NCBI GenBank assembly: GCA_946699065.1
Contig: CAMPDV010000150.1
Coordinates: 62,001 to 126,000, forward strand
DNA from: Loxodes magnus
Lineage: Eukaryota > Ciliophora > Karyorelictea > Loxodida > Loxodidae
Reading direction: 5' to 3'
Length of the DNA: 64,000 nucleotides
Part shown: in pieces, positions 2,163 to 29,655 of the stretch
How positions within the stretch are numbered: position 1 is the first letter of the stretch
How the letters are laid out: every line of letters begins with the position of its first letter
The notes under the pieces: model-generated
What the model was told of the DNA's origin: nothing
Databases searched by the model: none
What the model saw: the letters and a program-made list of their open reading frames with translations, nothing else
Program-made: the position numbers and the translations under genes

Positions 2163-3160
2163 TCAGCTTATTTTTAAATTAATTGTATAAACTAAAATTT
2201 AAAGATAAAAATACAAAATTAAATTTTGACGTTCTTGGAGGTATTTCAATCTCTTTCCCACTAGCCTCTAGATTGCTCTAGAGGCTAAATACAAAAACAT
2301 GGAAATAACTAATTTCTTTTCCTTACCATGCTTGCTATCCTTGAATTATTCTTTCATCTAGATGCTAAATATCTTTTTTCTTGTAAATTTCCTCAAATTT
2401 TTTACAATATTATCTTTCTCTTTCTCTTGAGATTCAATATTCTTGCTTGAAATTGAGAAATTACTATCACCTTTTCCACAGTTGCTTTTGAGAGTTACAG
2501 TAATAGCATCTTTTTTCTTGTCGTTTATGTTGAAATTTTGAGTTTTTTCACCTTTTATTATCATTGGATCATTTCTTTATTCTTTCAGTTCTATTTAAAG
2601 CTGAAATTTGTGTGGCTTTCTTCTATTTTTCAATCTTGTTGATTAGCACTTTCTGCATCTAATGTTAGTTTTGAGACTAACTTCTCTATTCTTGTGAAAT
2701 ATTTCAAAATGCATTAAGGTCTCTTTCTTAGGTCATGAGTTCGATTCTATTTCTTCTTCAAGTTCAAGTTTTTCCATTAACTTTTTATTGGCTTTCTTCA
2801 ATTTTTTTTACCTCTTCTTGGAGGTCAAGTACAACATTAATCATCTAATCATAGCTTATTTAAAACTATATGGTGAGATACAAGACTTTCAAAAACATTA
2901 TATTTTTAGCCTATTTCTTTGGGTTTTCTTCAGAAGTGGAAAATTTCATCCTGATGGGCGACCTTTTTGATAACCATAATCTGGTCCTAGCCTTTCTAGT
3001 ATGTTGTAAACTCCTGTTTTTTGGAGCCGACAAGTATTCTGTTTCGAATCCTGACATTTTTCTCTATTTAAAATTTAAAATATTGCCCTTTGTTTAAGTT
3101 TTATCTAAGTTTTAAGTATTAAAATTAAACTATTTGTTCTTTTTCTCTTCTTCTTTCAAA
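2163..3160 (-). CDS. possible protein-coding region, unidentified product
   Basis: This patch is richer in G+C than its surroundings. Read on the minus strand with TAA/TAG = Gln and TGA = Trp, one frame stays coherent for about 330 codons. It starts somewhere right of 3056 (no in-frame ATG was found) and runs to a TGA at 2163-2165. It contains GVYNILERLGPDYGYQKGR (about 3010-2950) followed by PSGWNF, with Trp from TGA. A Lys/Glu-rich coiled-coil-like stretch (KKLMEKLELEEEIESNS) follows near 2780-2736, then a basic Lys/Asn-rich tail. TGA at 2733-2735 would be internal Trp. A competing plus-strand frame at 2870-3097 has many G-first codons and ends at TAA, so the strand is not settled. No family was recognised. 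Confidence 0.35.
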
Positions 3161-3575: not shown

Positions 3576-3716
3576 TCAATTTGCAAACCCAACTTTATTT
3601 ATTAAAGTAATACTTTGGTTAGTACGGCCATTTTCTTTTGCTTCAGCTTTATTATCTTATTTATTAGCACATAAACTTGAATAAGCTTCTTTTGGATCGT
3701 TTTGAGAAATATATAA
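3576..3716 (-). CDS. coding-like 3' segment abutting the satellite, partial
   Basis: On the minus strand this short segment reads as a hydrophilic protein end: SQNDPKEAYSSLCANKQDN, then KAEAKENGRTNQSITLINK, then VGFAN. It is followed by TGA at 3576-3578, a candidate stop. The codons show a purine-first, pyrimidine-third pattern with many G-first codons, unlike the flanking DNA. Reading upstream, the frame runs straight into the last 101-bp satellite unit, where it gives SENNKLIYQSELAKYEKNLY. The segment may be the 3' exon of a gene whose upstream part was amplified or displaced by the satellite. The product is unknown. Because satellite DNA also yields protein-like strings in this code, confidence is limited. 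Confidence 0.35.
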
Positions 3717-6700
3717 ATTTTTTTCATACTTTGCTAACTCACTCTGATATATTAATTTATTATTCTCACTTCAAAACACTTCAAAAACTATATCTTTTTT
3801 CCCTTAAAAAATTAATAATTTTTTTCATACTTTGCTAACTCACTCTGATATATTAATTTATTATTCTCACTTCAAAACACTTCAAAAACTATATCTTTTT
3901 TCCCTTAAAAAATTAATAATTTTTTTCATACTTTGCTAACTCACTCTGATATTAAAATTTATTATTCTCACTTCAAAACACTTCAAAAACTATATCTTTT
4001 TTCCCTTAAAAAATTAATAATTTTTTTCATACTTTGCTAACTCACTCTGATATTAAAATTTATTATTCTCACTTCAAAACACTTCAAAAACTATATCTTT
4101 TTTCCCTTAAAAAATTAATAATTTTTTTCATACTTTGCTAACTCACTCTGATATTAAAATTTATTATTCTCACTTCAAAACACTTCAAAAACTATATCTT
4201 TTTTCCCTTAAAAAATTAATAATTTTTTTCATACTTTGCTAACTCACTCTGATATTAAAATTTATTATTCTCACTTCAAAACACTTCAAAAACTTCATCT
4301 TTTTTCCCTTAAAAAATTAATAATTTTTTTCATACTTTGCTAACTCACTCTGATATATTAATTTATTATTCTCACTTCAAAACACTTCAAAAACTATATC
4401 TTTTTTCCCTTAAAAAATTAATAATTTTTTTCATACTTTGCTAACTCACTCTGATATTAAAATTTATTATTCTCACTTCAAAACACTTCAAAAACTATAT
4501 CTTTTTTCCCTTAAAAAATTAATAATTTTTTTCATACTTTGCTAACTCACTCTGATATTAAAATTTATTATTCTCACTTCAAAACACTTCAAAAACTTCA
4601 TCTTTTTTCCCTTAAAAAATTAATAATTTTTTTCATACTTTGCTAACTCACTCTGATATATTAATTTATTATTCTCACTTCAAAACACTTCAAAAACTTC
4701 ATCTTTTTTCCCTTAAAAAATTAATAATTTTTTTCATACTTTGCTAACTCACTCTGATATTAAAATTTATTATTCTCACTTCAAAACACTTCAAAAACTA
4801 TATCTTTTTTCCCTTAAAAAATTAATAATTTTTTTCATACTTTGCTAACTCACTCTGATATTAAAATTTATTATTCTCACTTCAAAACACTTCAAAAACT
4901 TCATCTTTTTTCCCTTAAAAAATTAATAATTTTTTTCATACTTTGCTAACTCACTCTGATATTAAAATTTATTATTCTCACTTCAAAACACTTCAAAAAC
5001 TATATCTTTTTTCCCTTAAAAAATTAATAATTTTTTTCATACTTTGCTAACTCACTCTGATATTAAAATTTATTATTCTCACTTCAAAACACTTCAAAAA
5101 CTATATCTTTTTTCCCTTAAAAAATTAATAATTTTTTTCATACTTTGCTAACTCACTCTGATATTAAAATTTATTATTCTCACTTCAAAACACTTCAAAA
5201 ACTATATCTTTTTTCCCTTAAAAAATTAATAATTTTTTTCATACTTTGCTAACTCACTCTGATATTAAAATTTATTATTCTCACTTCAAAACACTTCAAA
5301 AACTATATCTTTTTTCCCTTAAAAAATTAATAATTTTTTTCATACTTTGCTAACTCACTCTGATATTAAAATTTATTATTCTCACTTCAAAACACTTCAA
5401 AAACTATATCTTTTTTCCCTTAAAAAATTAATAATTTTTTTCATACTTTGCTAACTCACTCTGATATATTAATTTATTATTCTCACTTCAAAACACTTCA
5501 AAAACTAACTCACTCTGATATATTAATTTTTTTCTCACTTCAAAAAACTTCAAAAACTATATCTTTTTTCCCTTAAAAAATTAATAATTTTTTTCATACT
5601 TTGCTAACTCACTCTGATATTAAAATTTATTATTCTCACTTCAAAAAACACTTTTTTCCCTTAAAAAATTAATAATTTTTTTCATACTTTGCTAACTCAC
5701 TCTTCAAAAACACTTAATCTTTTTTCCCTTAAAAAATTAATAATTTTTTTCATACTTTGCTAACTCACTCTGATATTAAAATTTATTATTCTCACTTCAA
5801 AACACTTCAAAAACTATATCTTTTTTCCCTTAAAAAATTAATAATTTTTTTCATACTTTGCTAACTCACTCTGATATTAAAATTTATTATTCTCACTTCA
5901 AAACACTTCAAAAACTATATCTTTTTTCCCTTAAAAAATTAATAATTTTTTTCATACTTTGCTAACTCACTCTGATATTAAAATTTATTATTCTCACTTC
6001 AAAACACTTCAAAAACTATATCTTTTTTCCCTTAAAAAATTAATAATTTTTTTCATACTTTGCTAACTCACTCTGATATATTAATTTATTATTCTCACTT
6101 CAAAACACTTCAAAAACTTCATCTTTTTTCCCTTAAAAAATTAATAATTTTTTTCATACTTTGCTAACTCACTCTGATTATTCTCACTTCAAAACACTTA
6201 TTAAAATTTATTATTCTCACTTCAAAACACTTCAAAAACTATATCTTTTTTCCCTTAAAAAATTAATAATTTTTTTCATACTTTGCTAACTCACTCTGAT
6301 ATTAAAATTTATTATTCTCACTTCAAAACACTTCAAAAACTTCATCTTTTTTCCCTTAAAAAATTAATAATTTTTTTCATACTTTGCTAACTCACTCTGA
6401 TATTAAAATTTATTATTCTCACTTCAAAACACTTCAAAAACTATATCTTTTTTCCCTTAAAAAATTAATAATTTTTTTCATACTTTGCTAACTCACTCTG
6501 ATATAAAATTTATTATTCTCACTTCAAAACACTTCAAAAACTATATCTTTTTTCCCTTAAAAAATTAATAATTTTTTTCATACTTTGCTAACTCACTCTG
6601 ATATTAAAATTTATTATTCTCACTTCAAAACACTTCAAAAACTTCATCTTTTTTCCCTTAAAAAATTAATAATTTTTTTCATACTTTGCTAACTCACTCT

Positions 6701-9700
6701 GATATTAAAATTTATTATTCTCACTTCAAAACACTTCAAAAACTTCATCTTTTTTCCCTTAAAAAATTAATAATTTTTTTCATACTTTGCTAACTCACTC
6801 TGATATTAAAATTTATTATTCTCACTTCAAAACACTTCAAAAACTTCATCTTTTTTCCCTTAAAAAATTAATAATTTTTTTCATACTTTGCTAACTCACT
6901 CTGATATTAAAATTTATTATTCTCACTTCAAAACACTTCAAAAACTATATCTTTTTTCCCTTAAAAAATTAATAATTTTTTTCATACTTTGCTAACTCAC
7001 TCTGATATTAAAATTTATTATTCTCACTTCAAAACACTTCAAAAACTATCATCTTTTTTCCCTTAAAAAATTAATAATTTTTTTCATACTTTGCTAACTC
7101 ACTCTGATATTAAAATTTATTATTCTCACTTCAAAACACTTCAAAAACTATATCTTTTTTCCCTTAAAAAATTAATAATTTTTTTCATACTTTGCTAACT
7201 CACTCTGATATTAAAATTTATTATTCTCACTTCAAAACACTTCAAAAACTATATCTTTTTTCCCTTAAAAAATTAATAATTTTTTTCATACTTTGCTAAC
7301 TCACTCTGATATTAAAATTTATTATTCTCACTTCAAAACACTTCAAAAACTATATCTTTTTTCCCTTAAAAAATTAATAATTTTTTTCATACTTTGCTAA
7401 CTCACTCTGATATTAAAATTTATTATTCTCACTTCAAAACACTTCAAAAACTATATCTTTTTTCCCTTAAAAAATTAATAATTTTTTTCATACTTTGCTA
7501 ACTCACTCTGATATTAAAATTTATTATTCTCACTTCAAAACACTTCAAAAACTATATCTTTTTTCCCTTAAAAAATTAATAATTTTTTTCATACTTTGCT
7601 AACTCACTCTGATATATTAATTTATTATTCTCACTTCAAAACACTTCAAAAACTTCATCTTTTTTCCCTTAAAAAATTAATAATTTTTTTCATACTTTGC
7701 TAACTCACTCTGATATTAAAATTTATTATTCTCACTTCAAAACACTTCAAAAACTATATCTTTTTTCCCTTAAAAAATTAATAATTTTTTTCATACTTTG
7801 CTAACTCACTCTGATATTAAAATTTATTATTCTCACTTCAAAACACTTCAAAAACTATATCTTTTTTCCCTTAAAAAATTAATAATTTTTTTCATACTTT
7901 GCTAACTCACTCTGATATTAAAATTTATTATTCTCACTTCAAAACACTTCAAAAACTTCATCTTTTTTCCCTTAAAAAATTAATAATTTTTTTCATACTT
8001 TGCTAACTCACTCTGATATTAAAATTTATTATTCTCACTTCAAAACACTTCAAAAACTATATCTTTTTTCCCTTAAAAAATTAATAATTTTTTTCATACT
8101 TTGCTAACTCACTCTGATATTAAAATTTATTATTCTCACTTCAAAACACTTCAAAAACTATATCTTTTTTCCCTTAAAAAATTAATAATTTTTTTCATAC
8201 TTTGCTAACTCACTCTGATATTAAAATTTATTATTCTCACTTCAAAACACTTCAAAAACTTCATCTTTTTTCCCTTAAAAAATTAATAATTTTTTTCATA
8301 CTTTGCTAACTCACTCTGATATTAAAATTTATTATTCTCACTTCAAAACACTTCAAAAACTATATCTTTTTTCCCTTAAAAAATTAATAATTTTTTTCAT
8401 ACTTTGCTAACTCACTCTGATATTAAAATTTATTATTCTCACTTCAAAACACTTCAAAAACTATATCTTTTTTCCCTTAAAAAATTAATAATTTTTTTCA
8501 TACTTTGCTAACTCACTCTGATATTAAAATTTATTATTCTCACTTCAAAACACTTCAAAAACTATATCTTTTTTCCCTTAAAAAATTAATAATTTTTTTC
8601 ATACTTTGCTAACTCACTCTGATATATTAAAATTTATTATTCTCACTTCAAAACACTTCAAAAACTATATCTTTTTTCCCTTAAAAAATTAATAATTTTT
8701 TTCATACTTTGCTAACTCACTCTGATATATTAAAAAATTTATTATTCTCACTTCAAAACACTTCAAAAACTTCATCTTTTTTCCCTTAAAAAATTAATAA
8801 TTTTTTTCATACTTTGCTAACTCACTCTGATATTAAAATTTATTATTCTCACTTCAAAACACTTCAAAAACTATATCTTTTTTCCCTTAAAAAATTAATA
8901 ATTTTTTTCATACTTTGCTAACTCACTCTGATATTAAAATTTATTATTCTCACTTCAAAACACTTCAAAAACTATATCTTTTTTCCCTTAAAAAATTAAT
9001 AATTTTTTTCATACTTTGCTAACTCACTCTGATATATTAATTTATTATTCTCACTTCAAAACACTTCAAAAACTATATCTTTTTTCCCTTAAAAAATTAA
9101 TAATTTTTTTCATACTTTGCTAACTCACTCTGATATTAAAATTTATTATTCTCACTTCAAAACACTTCAAAAACTATATCTTTTTTCCCTTAAAAAATTA
9201 ATAATTTTTTTCATACTTTGCTAACTCACTCTGATATTAAAATTTATTATTCTCACTTCAAAACACTTCAAAAACTATATCTTTTTTCCCTTAAAAAATT
9301 AATAATTTTTTTCATACTTTGCTAACTCACTCTGATATATTAAATTATTTATTATTCTCACTTCAAAACACTTCAAAAACTATATCTTTTTTCCCTTAAA
9401 AAATTAATAATTTTTTTCATACTTTGCTAACTCACTCTGATATTAAAATTTATTATTCTCACTTCAAAACACTTCAAAAACTATATCTTTTTTCCCTTAA
9501 AAAATTAATAATTTTTTTCATACTTTGCTAACTCACTCTGATATTAAAATTTATTATTCTCACTTCAAAACACTTCAAAAACTATATCTTTTTTCCCTTA
9601 AAAAATTAATAATTTTTTTCATACTTTGCTAACTCACTCTGATATTAAAATTTATTATTCTCACTTCAAAACACTTCAAAAACTATATCTTTTTTCCCTT

Positions 9701-12700
9701 AAAAAATTAATAATTTTTTTCATACTTTGCTAACTCACTCTGATATTAAAATTTATTATTCTCACTTCAAAACACTTCAAAAACTATATCTTTTTTCCCT
9801 TAAAAAATTAATAATTTTTTTCATACTTTGCTAACTCACTCTGATATTAAAATTTATTATTCTCACTTCAAAACACTTCAAAAACTATATCTTTTTTCCC
9901 TTAAAAAATTAATAATTTTTTTCATACTTTGCTAACTCACTCTGATATTTTTTTATACTTTGCTAATTTATTATTCTCACTTCAAAACACTTCAAAAACT
10001 ATATCTTTTTTCCCTTAAAAAATTAATAATTTTTTTCATACTTTGCTAACTCACTCTGATATTAAAATTTATTATTCTCACTTCAAAACACTTCAAAAAC
10101 TTCATCTTTTTTCCCTTAAAAAATTAATAATTTTTTTCATACTTTGCTAACTCACTCTGATATTAAAATTTATTATTCTCACTTCAAAACACTTCAAAAA
10201 CTATCATCTTTTTTCCCTTAAAAAATTAATAATTTTTTTCATACTTTGCTAACTCACTCTGATATTAAAATTTATTATTCTCACTTCAAAACACTTCAAA
10301 AACTTCATCTTTTTTCCCTTAAAAAATTAATAATTTTTTTCATACTTTGCTAACTCACTCTGATATTAAAATTTATTATTCTCACTTCAAAACACTTCAA
10401 AAACTATATCTTTTTTCCCTTAAAAAATTAATAATTTTTTTCATACTTTGCTAACTCACTCTGATATTAAAATTTATTATTCTCACTTCAAAACACTTCA
10501 AAAACTTCATCTTTTTTCCCTTAAAAAATTAATAATTTTTTTCATACTTTGCTAACTCACTCTGATATTAAAATTTATTATTCTCACTTCAAAACACTTC
10601 AAAAACTATATCTTTTTTCCCTTAAAAAATTAATAATTTTTTTCATACTTTGCTAACTCACTCTGATATTAAAATTTATTATTCTCACTTCAAAACACTT
10701 CAAAAACTATATCTTTTTTCCCTTAAAAAATTAATAATTTTTTTCATACTTTGCTAACTCACTCTGATATTAAAATTTATTATTCTCACTTCAAAACACT
10801 TCAAAAACTTCATCTTTTTTCCCTTAAAAAATTAATAATTTTTTTCATACTTTGCTAACTCACTCTGATATTAAAATTTATTATTCTCACTTCAAAACAC
10901 TTCAAAAACTATCATCTTTTTTCCCTTAAAAAATTAATAATTTTTTTCATACTTTGCTAACTCACTCTGATATTAAAATTTATTATTCTCACTTCAAAAC
11001 ACTTCAAAAACTATATCTTTTTTCCCTTAAAAAATTAATAATTTTTTTCATACTTTGCTAACTCACTCTGATATTAAAATTTATTATTCTCACTTCAAAA
11101 CACTTCAAAAACTATATCTTTTTTCCCTTAAAAAATTAATAATTTTTTTCATACTTTGCTAACTCACTCTGATATTAAAATTTATTATTCTCACTTCAAA
11201 ACACTTCAAAAACTATATCTTTTTTCCCTTAAAAAATTAATAATTTTTTTCATACTTTGCTAACTCACTCTGATATTAAAATTTATTATTCTCACTTCAA
11301 AACACTTCAAAAACTATATCTTTTTTCCCTTAAAAAATTAATAATTTTTTTCATACTTTGCTAACTCACTCTGATATTAAAATTTATTATTCTCACTTCA
11401 AAACACTTCAAAAACTATCATCTTTTTTCCCTTAAAAAATTAATAATTTTTTTCATACTTTGCTAACTCACTCTGATATTAAAATTTATTATTCTCACTT
11501 CAAAACACTTCAAAAACTATATCTTTTTTCCCTTAAAAAATTAATAATTTTTTTCATACTTTGCTAACTCACTCTGATATTAAAATTTATTATTCTCACT
11601 TCAAAACACTTCAAAAACTATATCTTTTTTCCCTTAAAAAATTAATAATTTTTTTCATACTTTGCTAACTCACTCTGATATTCAAAAAAATCTTTTTTTT
11701 ATTATTCTCACTTCAAAACATTCTCACTTCAAAAACTATATCTTTTTTCCCTTAAAAAATTAATAATTTTTTTCATACTTTGCTAACTCACTCTGATATT
11801 AAAATTTATTATTCTCACTTCAAAACACTTCAAAAACTATATCTTTTTTCCCTTAAAAAATTAATAATTTTTTTCATACTTTGCTAACTCACTCTGATAT
11901 TAAAATTTATTATTCTCACTTCAAAACACTTCAAAAACTATATCTTTTTTCCCTTAAAAAATTAATAATTTTTTTCATACTTTGCTAACTCACTCTGATA
12001 TTAAAATTTATTATTCTCACTTCAAAACACTTCAAAAACTATATCTTTTTTCCCTTAAAAAATTAATAATTTTTTTCATACTTTGCTAACTCACTCTGAT
12101 ATTAAAATTTATTATTCTCACTTCAAAACACTTCAAAAACTATATCTTTTTTCCCTTAAAAAATTAATAATTTTTTTCATACTTTGCTAACTCACTCTGA
12201 TATTAAAATTTATTATTCTCACTTCAAAACACTTCAAAAACTATATCTTTTTTCCCTTAAAAAATTAATAATTTTTTTCATACTTTGCTAACTCACTCTG
12301 ATATTAAAATTTATTATTCTCACTTCAAAACACTTCAAAAACTATATCTTTTTTCCCTTAAAAAATTAATAATTTTTTTCATACTTTGCTAACTCACTCT
12401 GATATTAAAATTTATTATTCTCACTTCAAAACACTTCAAAAACTATATCTTTTTTCCCTTAAAAAATTAATAATTTTTTTCATACTTTGCTAACTCACTC
12501 TGATATTAAAATTTATTATTCTCACTTCAAAACACTTCAAAAACTATATCTTTTTTCCCTTAAAAAATTAATAATTTTTTTCATACTTTGCTAACTCACT
12601 CTGATATTAAAATTTATTATTCTCACTTCAAAACACTTCAAAAACTTCATCTTTTTTCCCTTAAAAAATTAATAATTTTTTTCATACTTTGCTAACTCAC

Positions 12701-14316
12701 TCTGATATTAAAATTTATTATTCTCACTTCAAAACACTTCAAAAACTATATCTTTTTTCCCTTAAAAAATTAATAATTTTTTTCATACTTTGCTAACTCA
12801 CTCTGATATTAAAATTTATTATTCTCACTTCAAAACACTTCAAAAACTATATCTTTTTTCCCTTAAAAAATTAATAATTTTTTTCATACTTTGCTAACTC
12901 ACTCTGATATTAAAATTTATTATTCTCACTTCAAAACACTTCAAAAACTATATCTTTTTTCCCTTAAAAAATTAATAATTTTTTTCATACTTTGCTAACT
13001 CACTCTGATATTAAAATTTATTATTCTCACTTCAAAACACTTCAAAAACTTCATCTTTTTTCCCTTAAAAAATTAATAATTTTTTTCATACTTTGCTAAC
13101 TCACTCTGATATTAAAATTTATTATTCTCACTTCAAAACACTTCAAAAACTATATCTTTTTTCCCTTAAAAAATTAATAATTTTTTTCATACTTTGCTAA
13201 CTCACTCTGATATTAAAATTTATTATTCTCACTTCAAAACACTTCAAAAACTTCATCTTTTTTCCCTTAAAAAATTAATAATTTTTTTCATACTTTGCTA
13301 ACTCACTCTGATATTAAAATTTATTATTCTCACTTCAAAACACTTCAAAAACTATATCTTTTTTCCCTTAAAAAATTAATAATTTTTTTCATACTTTGCT
13401 AACTCACTCTGATATTACCTCAAAAACTAATTTATTATTCTCACTTCAAAACACTTCAAAAACTTCATCTTTTTTCCCTTAAAAAATTAATAATTTTTTT
13501 CATACTTTGCTAACTCACTCTGATATTAAAATTTATTATTCTCACTTCAAAACACTTCAAAAACTATATCTTTTTTCCCTTAAAAAATTAATAATTTTTT
13601 TCATACTTTGCTAACTCACTCTGATATTAAAATTTATTATTCTCACTTCAAAACACTTCAAAAACTATATCTTTTTTCCCTTAAAAAATTAATAATTTTT
13701 TTCATACTTTGCTAACTCACTCTGATATTAAAATTTATTATTCTCACTTCAAAACACTTCAAAAACTATATCTTTTTTCCCTTAAAAAATTAATAATTTT
13801 TTTCATACTTTGCTAACTCACTCTGATATTAAAATTTATTATTCTCACTTCAAAACACTTCAAAAACTATATCTTTTTTCCCTTAAAAAATTAATAATTT
13901 TTTTCATACTTTGCTAACTCACTCTGATATTAAAATTTATTATTCTCACTTCAAAACACTTCAAAAACTATATCTTTTTTCCCTTAAAAAATTAATAATT
14001 TTTTTCATACTTTGCTAACTCACTCTGATATTAAAATTTATTATTCTCACTTCAAAACACCTCAAAAACTATATCTTTTTCCCTTAAAAAATTAATAATT
14101 TTTTTCATACTTTGCTAACTCACTCTGATATATTAATTTATTATTCTCACTTCAAAACACTTCAAAAACTTCATCTTTTTTCCCTTAAAAAATTAATAAT
14201 TTTTTTCATACTTTGCTAACTCACTCTGATATTAAAATTTATTATTCTCACTTCAAAACACTTCAAAAACTATATCTTTTTTCCCTTAAAAAACTTAATA
14301 ATTTTTTTCATACTTG
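3717..14316. repeat. 101-bp satellite array, about 105 copies
   Basis: The core TTTGCTAACTCACTCTGATA recurs at exact 101-bp steps (for example 7085, 7186, 7287) across 10.6 kb. Main variants per unit are GATATTAAAATT versus GATATATTAATT and CTATATC versus CTTCATC, with a rarer one-base insertion (CTATCATC). Copies are otherwise almost identical, which indicates recent amplification or gene conversion. Each unit holds the direct repeat CACTTCAAAA twice and a near-perfect 19-nt dyad, AAAAAATTA-A-TAATTTTTT (3806-3824 in the second unit). Scrambled or truncated copies lie near 5505-5545, 5640-5720, 6175-6200, 9948-9968, 11682-11730 and 13417-13432. The unit length is not a multiple of three. Confidence 0.97.
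3806..3824. repeat. 19-nt dyad within each 101-bp unit (one instance)
   Basis: Nine-base arms AAAAAATTA and TAATTTTTT are exact reverse complements around one central A. The element recurs in nearly every satellite unit. Such a structure could be a protein-binding dyad or simply A/T-tract architecture; no function is shown. Confidence 0.7.
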
Positions 14317-25822: not shown

Positions 25823-28800
25823 ATGTTAATCATTTTTATTTTAGTAATTATTCTATAGGCTTGTTCATAAAGTTTATAGCTTTTGAATCAAACTACACCA
25901 ACTTATTTCACTGGCAGTAACGCCTCTAAAAGTACATTTTCAGATTTAAATTATGACCCCTCCATTAATTCCTAAACTTCGTGAGCTGTAAGTGGGTGAT
26001 TAAAGTTAGAAACTATAAATAGTAGCTATAGTTAAATTTTAAAAATTTCAAGTAGTACTGATTATATTTAGTTTGCTTTTATTCCTTAGTCTAGTTCTAA
26101 TACTTAAATAAATGTGCATAATTCAGCAAATGTTAAGCCAGCAATATTTCCATTTAGCTCTGATTGAATGCTTTTCTTAATTTAACAACAATCTAGCCAA
26201 TTTCTTTTCTGCTATGCTAAAGGAATATCACCTTCGCCTTCATTCGCAAATTTTTGTGGTATGATAAATGAAGGTTCAGGATAATATTTCATCTTTTAAA
26301 ATAGTCCTTTTATTAAATTAGGTGCTTTATCTAATTAATTTTAAGGTTGAATGCAAGATGTAAGATTTTGAACTAACAATAAATGATTTAATGAAAGTGA
26401 ATTCTTAGATCTTTCTTTATAACATCCATGGTCTCTTAGTTGTTTAGGCTACTATAATGAAACATTTTTAAATCCTTGCTAACCTTGTAACGATAGATGT
26501 CTTACTTGTAATGGACCTTTAGATATAAATTGCACAACTTGCAGATAAAATTAATATCTAGACTAAACTAAAACATGTCAATGCAATCTTGGATTTAACA
26601 CCATTAATAATAATCCTTTAGAATGTGAATAATGTGATAAATTTATGCCTTTTTGTGCAACTTTTTCTAGCACTTCAGTTTGTACTTCATGTAAAGCTTC
26701 TAAATACTTAAATTTAGATGGAACTTGTTAAGATAGTTGTCCTACTATATAGCAAGATAAAGATTAGGATTACATATGCAAGCTTTGTAGTGAATTTCTA
26801 CCTAATTGTTTAGAATGTACTCAAGATGCCTTAAATTGTACAAAGTGCGCTGATGGTTTTTATATAGGAATCGACTTTAAATGCTATGCATGCTAAGATT
26901 CAAATTGCAAAAAATGCTCAAACGAAGGAAGCTTTTGTAATGAATGCAGTGGACCTTACAAACTAGAATTAGCAGTAAATAAATGTTCTTTAAATTGCCC
27001 AAATACTGAATAAGATTCTGATAAGGATGAAATATGTTAAACTTGCAATAAGATTTAGAATAATTGCATTTAATGTACTGAAAATGGATAATAATGCACT
27101 CTTTGTAACGATGGCTTCTTCATCAATAATTTTAAATGCGAATCCTGCTAATAAAAAATAGACTTTTGTGAGAGTTGTTCTTAAGATGAATTAAAATGCT
27201 CTAAATGCGTTTATCCAAAAAAGTTATCGAATAATTAGTGTGTCGATTAATGTCCTGATTTTGAATAAGATATAGACAAAGATAATGAATGCTAAGCATG
27301 TTATTACAGTATAGAAAATTGCTTAAAATGTAGTGGAAATAATAATACACTTATATGTGACTAATGCTATGGAAATTAAACTTTAATCAATAATTAGTGT
27401 TCATAGTGTGGACAAATAGATCCAAATTGTATACTATGTGAAGAACAGAACGTTTGTTTACAATGTAATAATGCAAAACTAACTAAAAATTCTTGCAAAC
27501 TCCAATGTGATGAAGATGAATAAGATTATGATTAAGATTACAAATGCGAATTATGTAGTAAAGTAATAGAAAATTGTTATAAATGTGATCAAAGCACTAA
27601 ATAGTGCTTAGAATGCAGTGAAGGATTCTTTTTATAAAACTAAGCTTGCTTTTCATGTTCAAAGATTCATGCTGACTGCATTAAATGTTCCGATAAAAAT
27701 ACTTGCTTAGCTTGCTTATATAATAAATAATTATATAATAATACTTATATAGAAAATTGCTCTATAACTGAGTTTTTTGACATACAAAAAGGAAATTGCA
27801 TTTCTTGTTAACTACCAATAAAAAATTGCTCATAATGTTCAGAAGATGGAACTAAGTGTCTCGTTTGCTAAAATGGATATAACTTAACTTAAAGTTTCAC
27901 ATGTGAATAGTACATAAATTAATTCAGTGAAGAAGAATAAGAAAATTAAGAACTATCGTAAAGTGAAAAAAGTTATATAAAATAAGCAGAAACTACAAAT
28001 AAAGTATTTGGGAACTCTATAACGGTATCATCAGCTGCTATAGTTTTATTTTAATAAGGAAGTATAACAGGTTTGGCTATATTCTGAATAATAATTTTTC
28101 TCGATGAGTTAATATGTTTAAATGGTTTACTTAACTTGAAATTTCCTAGTAACTTAAATTATCTCTATAAATTAAAATAGGTAGGAATGCTGAATTTTAA
28201 TTTTGGAATTCAAAGTTTATTTCTTACAGATAGCAATTAAAACTAAATAAGAAACGAAAATTTTAATGCTTATAATTATAAGGAGTATATTCTACTTTCT
28301 AATATTTATAGAGCTTAGTTTGAACTATCTATTTAATTTTTAATATTTTTAATCAGTTCCATTATTTCAAGAGTTTGAGTAGCGAATAAATATTTTAAGA
28401 GTATAATATCTCATTTTAAATACTGCTCGTTTATAAAGTTTTGCTTAGTTAATACTATTTAAATATGAATAGCTATTCTGCTTCAAATTTAGAATTTACA
28501 ATGAAATGATTGATATACTTCTTAAACTCCATTTTGGCCTTTTGTTTATTGGTAAGTATTTTTATTTAGATTATATTTGTTCTATTTTTAGCTTTTATAT
28601 TTTACTAGATTTATTAAATGCAAAGAGTAAGAAAAAAAAGCGATTAAGAAAGTGAAAGCTAACTAATGGTAAAATATGGAAGTTTATTTGAAGAGTTTAG
28701 AAACGAAGCAAATTTAGCAGTTTCTAGTTTTTATGCTTTATTTATCTTACGAAGATTTATAATAAGCTTAGTCATAGTATTTGCTTAATAGCATCAAGAA

Positions 28801-29655
28801 TTTTAAGTAATGACAATGATAGGATTAAGTGTATTTCAGATAAATTATTTAGTTTACTTTAATCCTTACAAATCTAGGATTGACTCAATACTTAATATTT
28901 TTAGCGAGTTGGTAATCTTTGTGATTTATCTTTTGGATCTGTGCTTCATTGCTTTTGAAAAGTAGCATAGATAGCTATTTACCTAAGATATGTATAATGA
29001 TACTGGCAAGTGCGTTATATTCCTATCTAGTTTAATAGCTTATTTCAATATTTCAGTATTTTTGCTAGTATTAATTAATTAGTTGTATCTAAAGGGCAAA
29101 GAATATAGAAGCAAAAAAGAGAAATAGTTACAGATTTCCCCTTTATATGAGTAAGATTTAGAGGAGAATAAGTAACAGTCTTAAGTAAATTAAAATATTT
29201 CTCAAATTAGCCAACTAAACTATTCATCTTAAAGATTGGTTAATAGCATAGATCTTGATTTATTCAACTAAACTTAGCAGAAAATACTATAAAGTAAGAT
29301 TATAATGGAGGATTTTAATATACTAAGGATTCCACCCAACTAAAAGAATGATAGATTAAAAAATAGTTAAAGAGAGGCTTGACGCAAAAATTATTCGAAG
29401 TAAAAAAAGCATATAATGAGGCTTTTAATAAGAAAAGCATAAAAATAAAAAGTAGATATATCAAGTCTGATTAATGGCATAAATAAATTAGATATTTTGG
29501 ATTATAAAAAACGCAAAAATATATATACTATAAAAAGGTTAAAAATGCTCGTTCGAGAGCATCTTAAAGAAATTGGCAAAACATAAAAGAATAAAGAGGA
29601 AATAAATATATTGATGAAATATTTTGATTACTTGTGTTCAAGAGCAGAAATCTGA
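25823..29655 (+). CDS. large secreted/membrane protein: LamG-like domain, furin-like Cys repeats, multi-pass C-terminus
   Basis: The start ATG 25823 is followed by a signal peptide (MLIIFILVIILQACSQ). Residues about 25-200 form a LamG/ConA-like jelly roll: TSWAVSGWLKLE, then SSDWMLFLIQQQ, then FQGWMQDVRFWTNNKWFNE. Residues about 215-700 are Cys-rich with repeated CxxC spacing, as in furin-like repeats of ciliate surface proteins. Four modules carry an acidic linker of the type QDxDxDxxCxxC. A membrane segment lies at about 738-768 and several more follow before a Gln/Lys-rich cytoplasmic tail of about 190 residues, for about 1,275 residues in all. TAA and TAG occur throughout as Gln. TGA at 25982, 25997, 26165, 26348, 26369, 26384, 28085, 28376, 28466, 28502 and 29380 reads as Trp, against one TGG (26429). 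The frame changes by minus one near 28505-28515 (a one-base loss or an unseen intron). The TGA at 29653-29655 is the likely stop. The family is probably a cell-surface receptor or adhesion protein; the ligand is unknown. Confidence 0.88.

Follow-up and report, generated by a model that had tools for sequence, protein, structure and literature searches.

The gene at positions 25823..29655 on the plus strand of the window, by which we mean the whole 64,000-nucleotide stretch of DNA that was analysed, belongs to the macronuclear assembly of Loxodes magnus, a ciliate of the class Karyorelictea, and is read by the published karyorelict genetic code (NCBI table 27), a conclusion to which we give a probability of about 95%. 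Translating TGA as tryptophan inside genes, and TAA and TAG as glutamine, is very probably correct, because paralogues of the gene, tubulins elsewhere in the assembly and the tRNAs found all agree with these assignments; the code itself is already known, and was very probably published for the source organism. A sequence-only reading of the window had proposed the same assignments and had listed karyorelicts among the few lineages in which all three stop codons are reassigned, and the source organism is, to go by assembly size and code, a karyorelict with a published code of this kind. One amendment is needed. TGA is also the stop codon of this gene family and of alpha-tubulin, and apparently of eRF1, so that the code is ambiguous and not a clean reassignment. 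The comparison offers a gene-by-gene confirmation that one codon holds two meanings within one message.

TGA codons and reading frames of the window gene

The gene is a member of a multi-copy family and its coding sequence contains a single frame change near position 28520. By codon count, the first frame (25823-28519) holds exactly 11 TGA codons and one TGG, the latter at 26429, in keeping with the 'about eleven' TGA codons and single TGG recorded from the sequence alone. Six of the TGA codons (25982, 25997, 26165, 26348, 26369 and 26384) lie, together with the TGG, in the N-terminal hydrophobic segment and predicted ConA/LamG-like jelly-roll domain (25823..26473), where the contexts previously picked out, SGWLK, SDWML and QGWMQDVRFW, are all present. 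The Cys-rich repeat region that follows (26474..27919) has frequent TAA and TAG (glutamine) codons and, as had been noted, no in-frame TGA; the TGA-free run extends over codons 189-754, which are mostly the Cys-rich stretch. The remaining five TGA codons (28085, 28376, 28466, 28502 and 28511) fall in a hydrophobic part at 28085..28513. Counted over both frames, 69 of the 1,276 codons are TAA and 23 are TAG.

At 28514..28540 the window copy lacks one base relative to the six paralogues aligned there and coding goes on in another frame, which puts any later TGA codons of the first frame out of frame. Beyond 28520, the frame used by the paralogues contains two more TGA codons, one internal (29380..29382) and one terminal (29653..29655), and position 29655, with which the gene had originally been closed, is the last base of the terminal codon. 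This second frame runs for some 286 codons without TGA before it reaches 29380, and its sequence is conserved in the paralogues. The window copy is either frameshifted or misassembled near 28520, and may or may not yield a full protein; copies that lack the frame change exist in the assembly. An intron was considered as the cause of the change near 28.5 kb and rejected, as the six paralogues cross the site without one and the window copy is a single base short. At 29380 the same six paralogues carry TAA or TAG, which means that one of the twelve internal TGA codons is off a tryptophan site. Judged from the alignments, 11 of the 12 fit tryptophan, the six of the N-terminal domain best, and the codon at 29380 does not.

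Residues opposite TGA in paralogues

The assembly searched comprises 705,730,643 bases in 7,843 contigs, the window being positions 62001-126000 of contig C150; the macronuclear assembly of L. magnus is given as 706 Mbp in the part of PMC11441545 consulted. A 1,001-base query returned at least 65 matching stretches, several per gene, and a set of 20 gene regions was aligned to the window gene. At the six TGA columns of the N-terminal domain (codons 54, 59, 115, 176, 183 and 188), 97 of the cells contributed by the 20 paralogues are TGA, 13 are TGG, six are tyrosine and four are leucine. TGA or TGG thus occupies 110 of 120 cells, which are not independent, as some copies (for example L025, L026 and L027) are near-identical; the agreement with tryptophan is greater than chance would give. 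Column 59 is TGA in every one of the 20. On a tree of the 21 copies, from which the six columns were left out, the minimum numbers of changes at columns 54, 59, 115, 176, 183 and 188 are 3, 0, 4, 2, 3 and 1, respectively. Columns 54 and 115 are TGA or TGG in all 21 copies, so the changes there (at least three and at least four) are exchanges between TGA and TGG. In each of the pairs listed (pS 0.03-0.45, more than 150 codons) dN was lower than dS, with ratios of 0.41-0.98, the upper end of which indicates that constraint is partly weak.

Several observations count against the tryptophan reading. The five TGA columns of the membrane part (755, 852, 882, 894 and 897) have TGA in 7 of 15, 7 of 16, 8 of 16, 7 of 11 and 7 of 12 aligned copies, respectively, the other copies, about half, having various residues and, at column 897, one TGG. 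Columns 144, 154, 178, 214, 219, 830 and 839, five in the N-terminal domain and two in the membrane part, each have TGA in a single copy and other residues elsewhere, and columns 2, 98, 210, 751, 754 and 850 have 2, 3, 5, 2, 5 and 2 TGA codons among other residues.

At column 203, where the window gene has its TGG, the 20 copies show TGA three times, cysteine 16 times and glutamine once; at column 129, where it has phenylalanine, TGA is present in 19 of 20. Judged by matched segments, five of the 20 paralogues (L024, L028, L030, L031 and L032) change frame inside the N-terminal domain.

Tubulin, eRF1 and pelota genes

Twenty tubulin loci picked for carrying internal TGA, with 21-55% identity to alpha-tubulin, and three alpha-tubulin copies were compared with alpha-tubulin, making 23 loci in all. 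Since the loci were picked for TGA, the share of TGA codons is uninformative, but their placement is still informative. Of 70 TGA cells, 47 fall in just four of 454 columns (21, 103, 346 and 407), which have TGA in 13, 13, 13 and 8 loci and TGG in 9, 1, 6 and 4, respectively. Columns 21, 346 and 407 are tryptophan in the alpha copy, and the column near 103 is one that we take to be tryptophan in beta-tubulin. The other 23 cells are scattered over 18 columns and count against the tryptophan reading. Alpha-tubulin itself has TGG at all three of its tryptophans and TGA at its end, and the three alpha copies likewise use TGG only. Many of the tubulin matches form a cluster at C64:618992-934095, where L012, L013 and L018 are alpha-tubulins with tryptophan encoded by TGG only, as is L023 on contig C237.

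Three places in the assembly matched the eRF1 domain 1 family. From features such as the NIKS motif, we take L010 and L011 to be eRF1 and the best-scoring place, L009, to be pelota. The pelota-like gene has one internal TGA, which was weighed against the tryptophan reading. The eRF1-like gene L010 ends at TGA and has further in-frame TGA codons three and five codons on; the three clustered terminal TGA codons at this locus (C196:18213-21581) resemble back-up stops. TAA and TAG occur in frame inside both the tubulin and the eRF1-domain matches.

TGA as a stop codon

In the frame used by the paralogues, the window gene ends with the TGA at 29653..29655 after the residues RAEI. Eight of the 20 copies held the anchor motif for the C-terminal part, and seven of these (L025, L026, L027, L034, L037, L038 and L039) end at the same position, after EGI; the eighth, L028, is out of frame at the stop region. 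The 60 bases past the stop have a G+C content of 0.12-0.17 in the window gene and the seven paralogues, the 100 bases after the window stop having 0.14, and in this they look like a 3′ UTR. In these few genes in-frame TGA is depleted just ahead of the stop, as it is in the karyorelict code: the window gene has none over its final 90 codons, and the seven paralogues have none over their final 317-324.

tRNA genes

A pattern for tRNA-Trp(CCA) gave 125 matches in the assembly, and a control pattern gave none. Among the 100 listed of these 125, 48 are on contig C67, 50 on C148 and two on C110, mostly in tandem arrays. In four genes, two on each of C67 and C148, the 27-43 pair is open, leaving an anticodon stem of 4 bp. 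Only four places match the stem-loop pattern once position 43 is required not to be C. Three of them, on C110 (L065, L066 and L069), have five anticodon-stem pairs; the T stem of L065 and that of L069 have just three of their five pairs, and the T-loop of L069 is atypical. The fourth of the non-C43 places is the last unit of the C67 array and was rejected as a tRNA by ARAGORN. The arrays lie at C67:482300-491371 (containing L064 and L070) and C148:155441-168962 (L067 and L068), and their repeat units measure about 187 and 241 bases. They are possibly worth a look in their own right, as the members examined have the 4-bp stem and only three 5-bp copies were found. No account of tRNA-Trp arrays in Loxodes was found in the literature searched, the two most pertinent papers lying outside that search, and we claim no novelty for them; the main text of PMC11441545 does not contain the word 'tRNA'.

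The sequence-only reading had proposed a search for tRNAs with UCA, UUA and CUA anticodons. When the tRNA-Trp body was given a UCA anticodon, the counts were unchanged (54 and 71), all of the 100 matches listed being CCA, so that no UCA form within two mismatches came to light; the search covered the tRNA-Trp body seen here and would miss a tRNA-Trp(UCA) built on another body. The 4-bp-stem tRNA-Trp(CCA) is found instead. UUA is the anticodon that was present as expected: with up to three mismatches, 363 places match a Gln-type pattern, the 100 listed all being TTA, and ARAGORN assigned the anticodon UUA to two Gln-like tRNAs, which, to go by this likeness, are probably charged with glutamine. 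For a Gln tRNA with a CUA anticodon, one of two narrow patterns found no matches, and the other, with one mismatch allowed, found 169, all TTA among the 100 listed. For TAA and TAG, glutamine is the probable residue, given this Gln-like tRNA and the assignment in table 27.

Structure of the encoded protein

Over 25823..29655 the gene encodes a predicted secreted or membrane protein with a hydrophobic N-terminus, a ConA/LamG-like domain, Cys-rich repeats, a hydrophobic part of multi-pass appearance and a C-terminal tail. An AlphaFold2 model of the N-terminal domain was made from 14 copies, one of which (L028) is out of frame past about residue 168, and has moderate confidence, with a mean pLDDT of 71.7 and a pTM of 0.76. 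Foldseek returned 460 matches to it at E values up to 0.001, with TM-scores (query) of 0.42-0.57 in the 50 listed; these are ConA-type jelly rolls, namely legume lectins, LamG domains of neurexin and agrin, and glycosidase modules, and include many chains of clostridial neurotoxin binding parts, which share the same common fold. The model therefore points, with moderate confidence, to a ConA/LamG-like jelly-roll beta sandwich. The LamG/ConA-like fold first suggested from the residues alone is in this way upheld by the predicted structure, without a sequence match to LamG in Pfam at E values up to 1. Pfam gave only a weak match to Giardia VSP (E 0.4), for the Cys-rich part; a PDB sequence search gave 12 weak matches (best E 0.14), and neither put a name to the protein. 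To judge by its sequence, the whole protein resembles a surface protein of ciliates, combining Cys-rich repeats with a membrane part of multi-pass type; a literature search on ciliate surface proteins yielded nothing useful.

Discussion

In the part of PMC11441545 consulted, karyorelicts including Loxodes are assigned NCBI table 27, with UGA as the sole stop codon and also as a tryptophan codon when it lies far upstream of the poly-A tail. We found no clear departure from this table, with UAA and UAG as sense codons and UGA as tryptophan internally and as a stop at gene ends. A scheme that fits would have TAA and TAG read as glutamine, internal TGA read as tryptophan by the 4-bp-stem tRNA-Trp(CCA), and the final TGA, which lies near the end of the mRNA, acting as a stop, so that termination would depend on position, as the papers suggest. 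In the sections seen, PMC13092985 and PMC12005148 state that Loxodes has a tRNA-Trp(CCA) with a 4-bp stem, citing Swart et al. (eLife RP93502), and the first of these reports that such tRNAs read UGA; a 4-bp-stem tRNA-Trp(CCA) is likewise described for Blastocrithidia in excerpts of PMC12153298. The tRNAs examined here have the same CCA anticodon and open 27-43 pair, and differ from the published form, as far as those excerpts describe it, in being repeated in tandem by the dozen and in having three 5-bp counterparts on a separate contig.

A code of the same type is known from Parduczia sp. and Condylostoma magnum (Swart et al., 2016, PMC4967479, seen in part), where UAA and UAG are also glutamine, UGA is tryptophan and the stop is context-dependent. 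According to that portion of the paper, the Parduczia transcripts inspected end at UGA, as do the genes here, whereas Condylostoma is inferred to stop at all three codons, unlike the genes here. UGA is rare in both species by the figures given there (0.042% and 0.120%), but outnumbers TGG by 97 to 13 at the six columns of our gene family. It is conceivable, though rather doubtful, that TGA has become the commoner tryptophan codon in low-constraint Loxodes gene families whilst the alpha-tubulins seen keep TGG, supported by tandem-amplified 4-bp-stem tRNA-Trp(CCA) genes that have largely displaced the 5-bp form.

It seems very improbable that TGA is purely a stop codon in this ciliate and that the gene is a pseudogene in decay, its TGG codons having mutated to TGA. 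Broken copies do occur in the family, as the frame switches in the N-terminal domain of five paralogues indicate, and the window copy has both its length change and a TGA opposite glutamine codons. However, TGA recurs in the same columns from copy to copy, without exception at column 59 and with TGG as its only substitute at columns 54 and 115; dN stays below dS in the pairs listed, although constraint is partly weak; and conserved tryptophan sites in tubulins encoded on other contigs have TGA as well. The argument made from the sequence alone, that decay would also have put TGA at arginine, glycine or cysteine sites, holds for the 11 TGA codons of the first frame but does not extend to the whole copy, with its frame change and its TGA at 29380. 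That the one-base difference near 28520 is an assembly error in an intact copy is compatible with the table 27 reading and is a real possibility, at somewhat less than an even chance: the frame beyond it is long, conserved and free of TGA up to 29380, and the published coverage is moderate, at about 20-30x in the part of PMC11441545 consulted, but the TGA opposite glutamine codons suggests some decay and other family copies switch frame too.

A-to-I editing that turned TGA into TGG in the mRNA, with TGA itself never decoded as tryptophan, would lead us to expect tryptophan at TGA sites equally well. We give this only a minute chance, given the abundance of 4-bp-stem tRNA-Trp(CCA) genes and the report cited above, in the part of PMC13092985 seen, that such tRNAs read UGA.

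Surroundings of the gene

Around the gene, most of the window consists of repeats, namely a 101-base satellite and a tandem repeat with a period of about 2.49 kb (3716-14315 and about 31000-64000). In the remaining window, a coding-bias scan with a score trained partly on the gene at 25823..29655 found no other gene equally clear; on the minus strand, 2226-3153 has coding-like codon use in several frames and is perhaps a repeat or a gene fragment. Elsewhere in the assembly, paralogues occur as pairs in opposite orientation at a constant spacing of about 6.93 kb (C150:149676/156609, C150:557872/564809 and C2497:49928/56861), an arrangement suggestive of copies of a single inverted unit.
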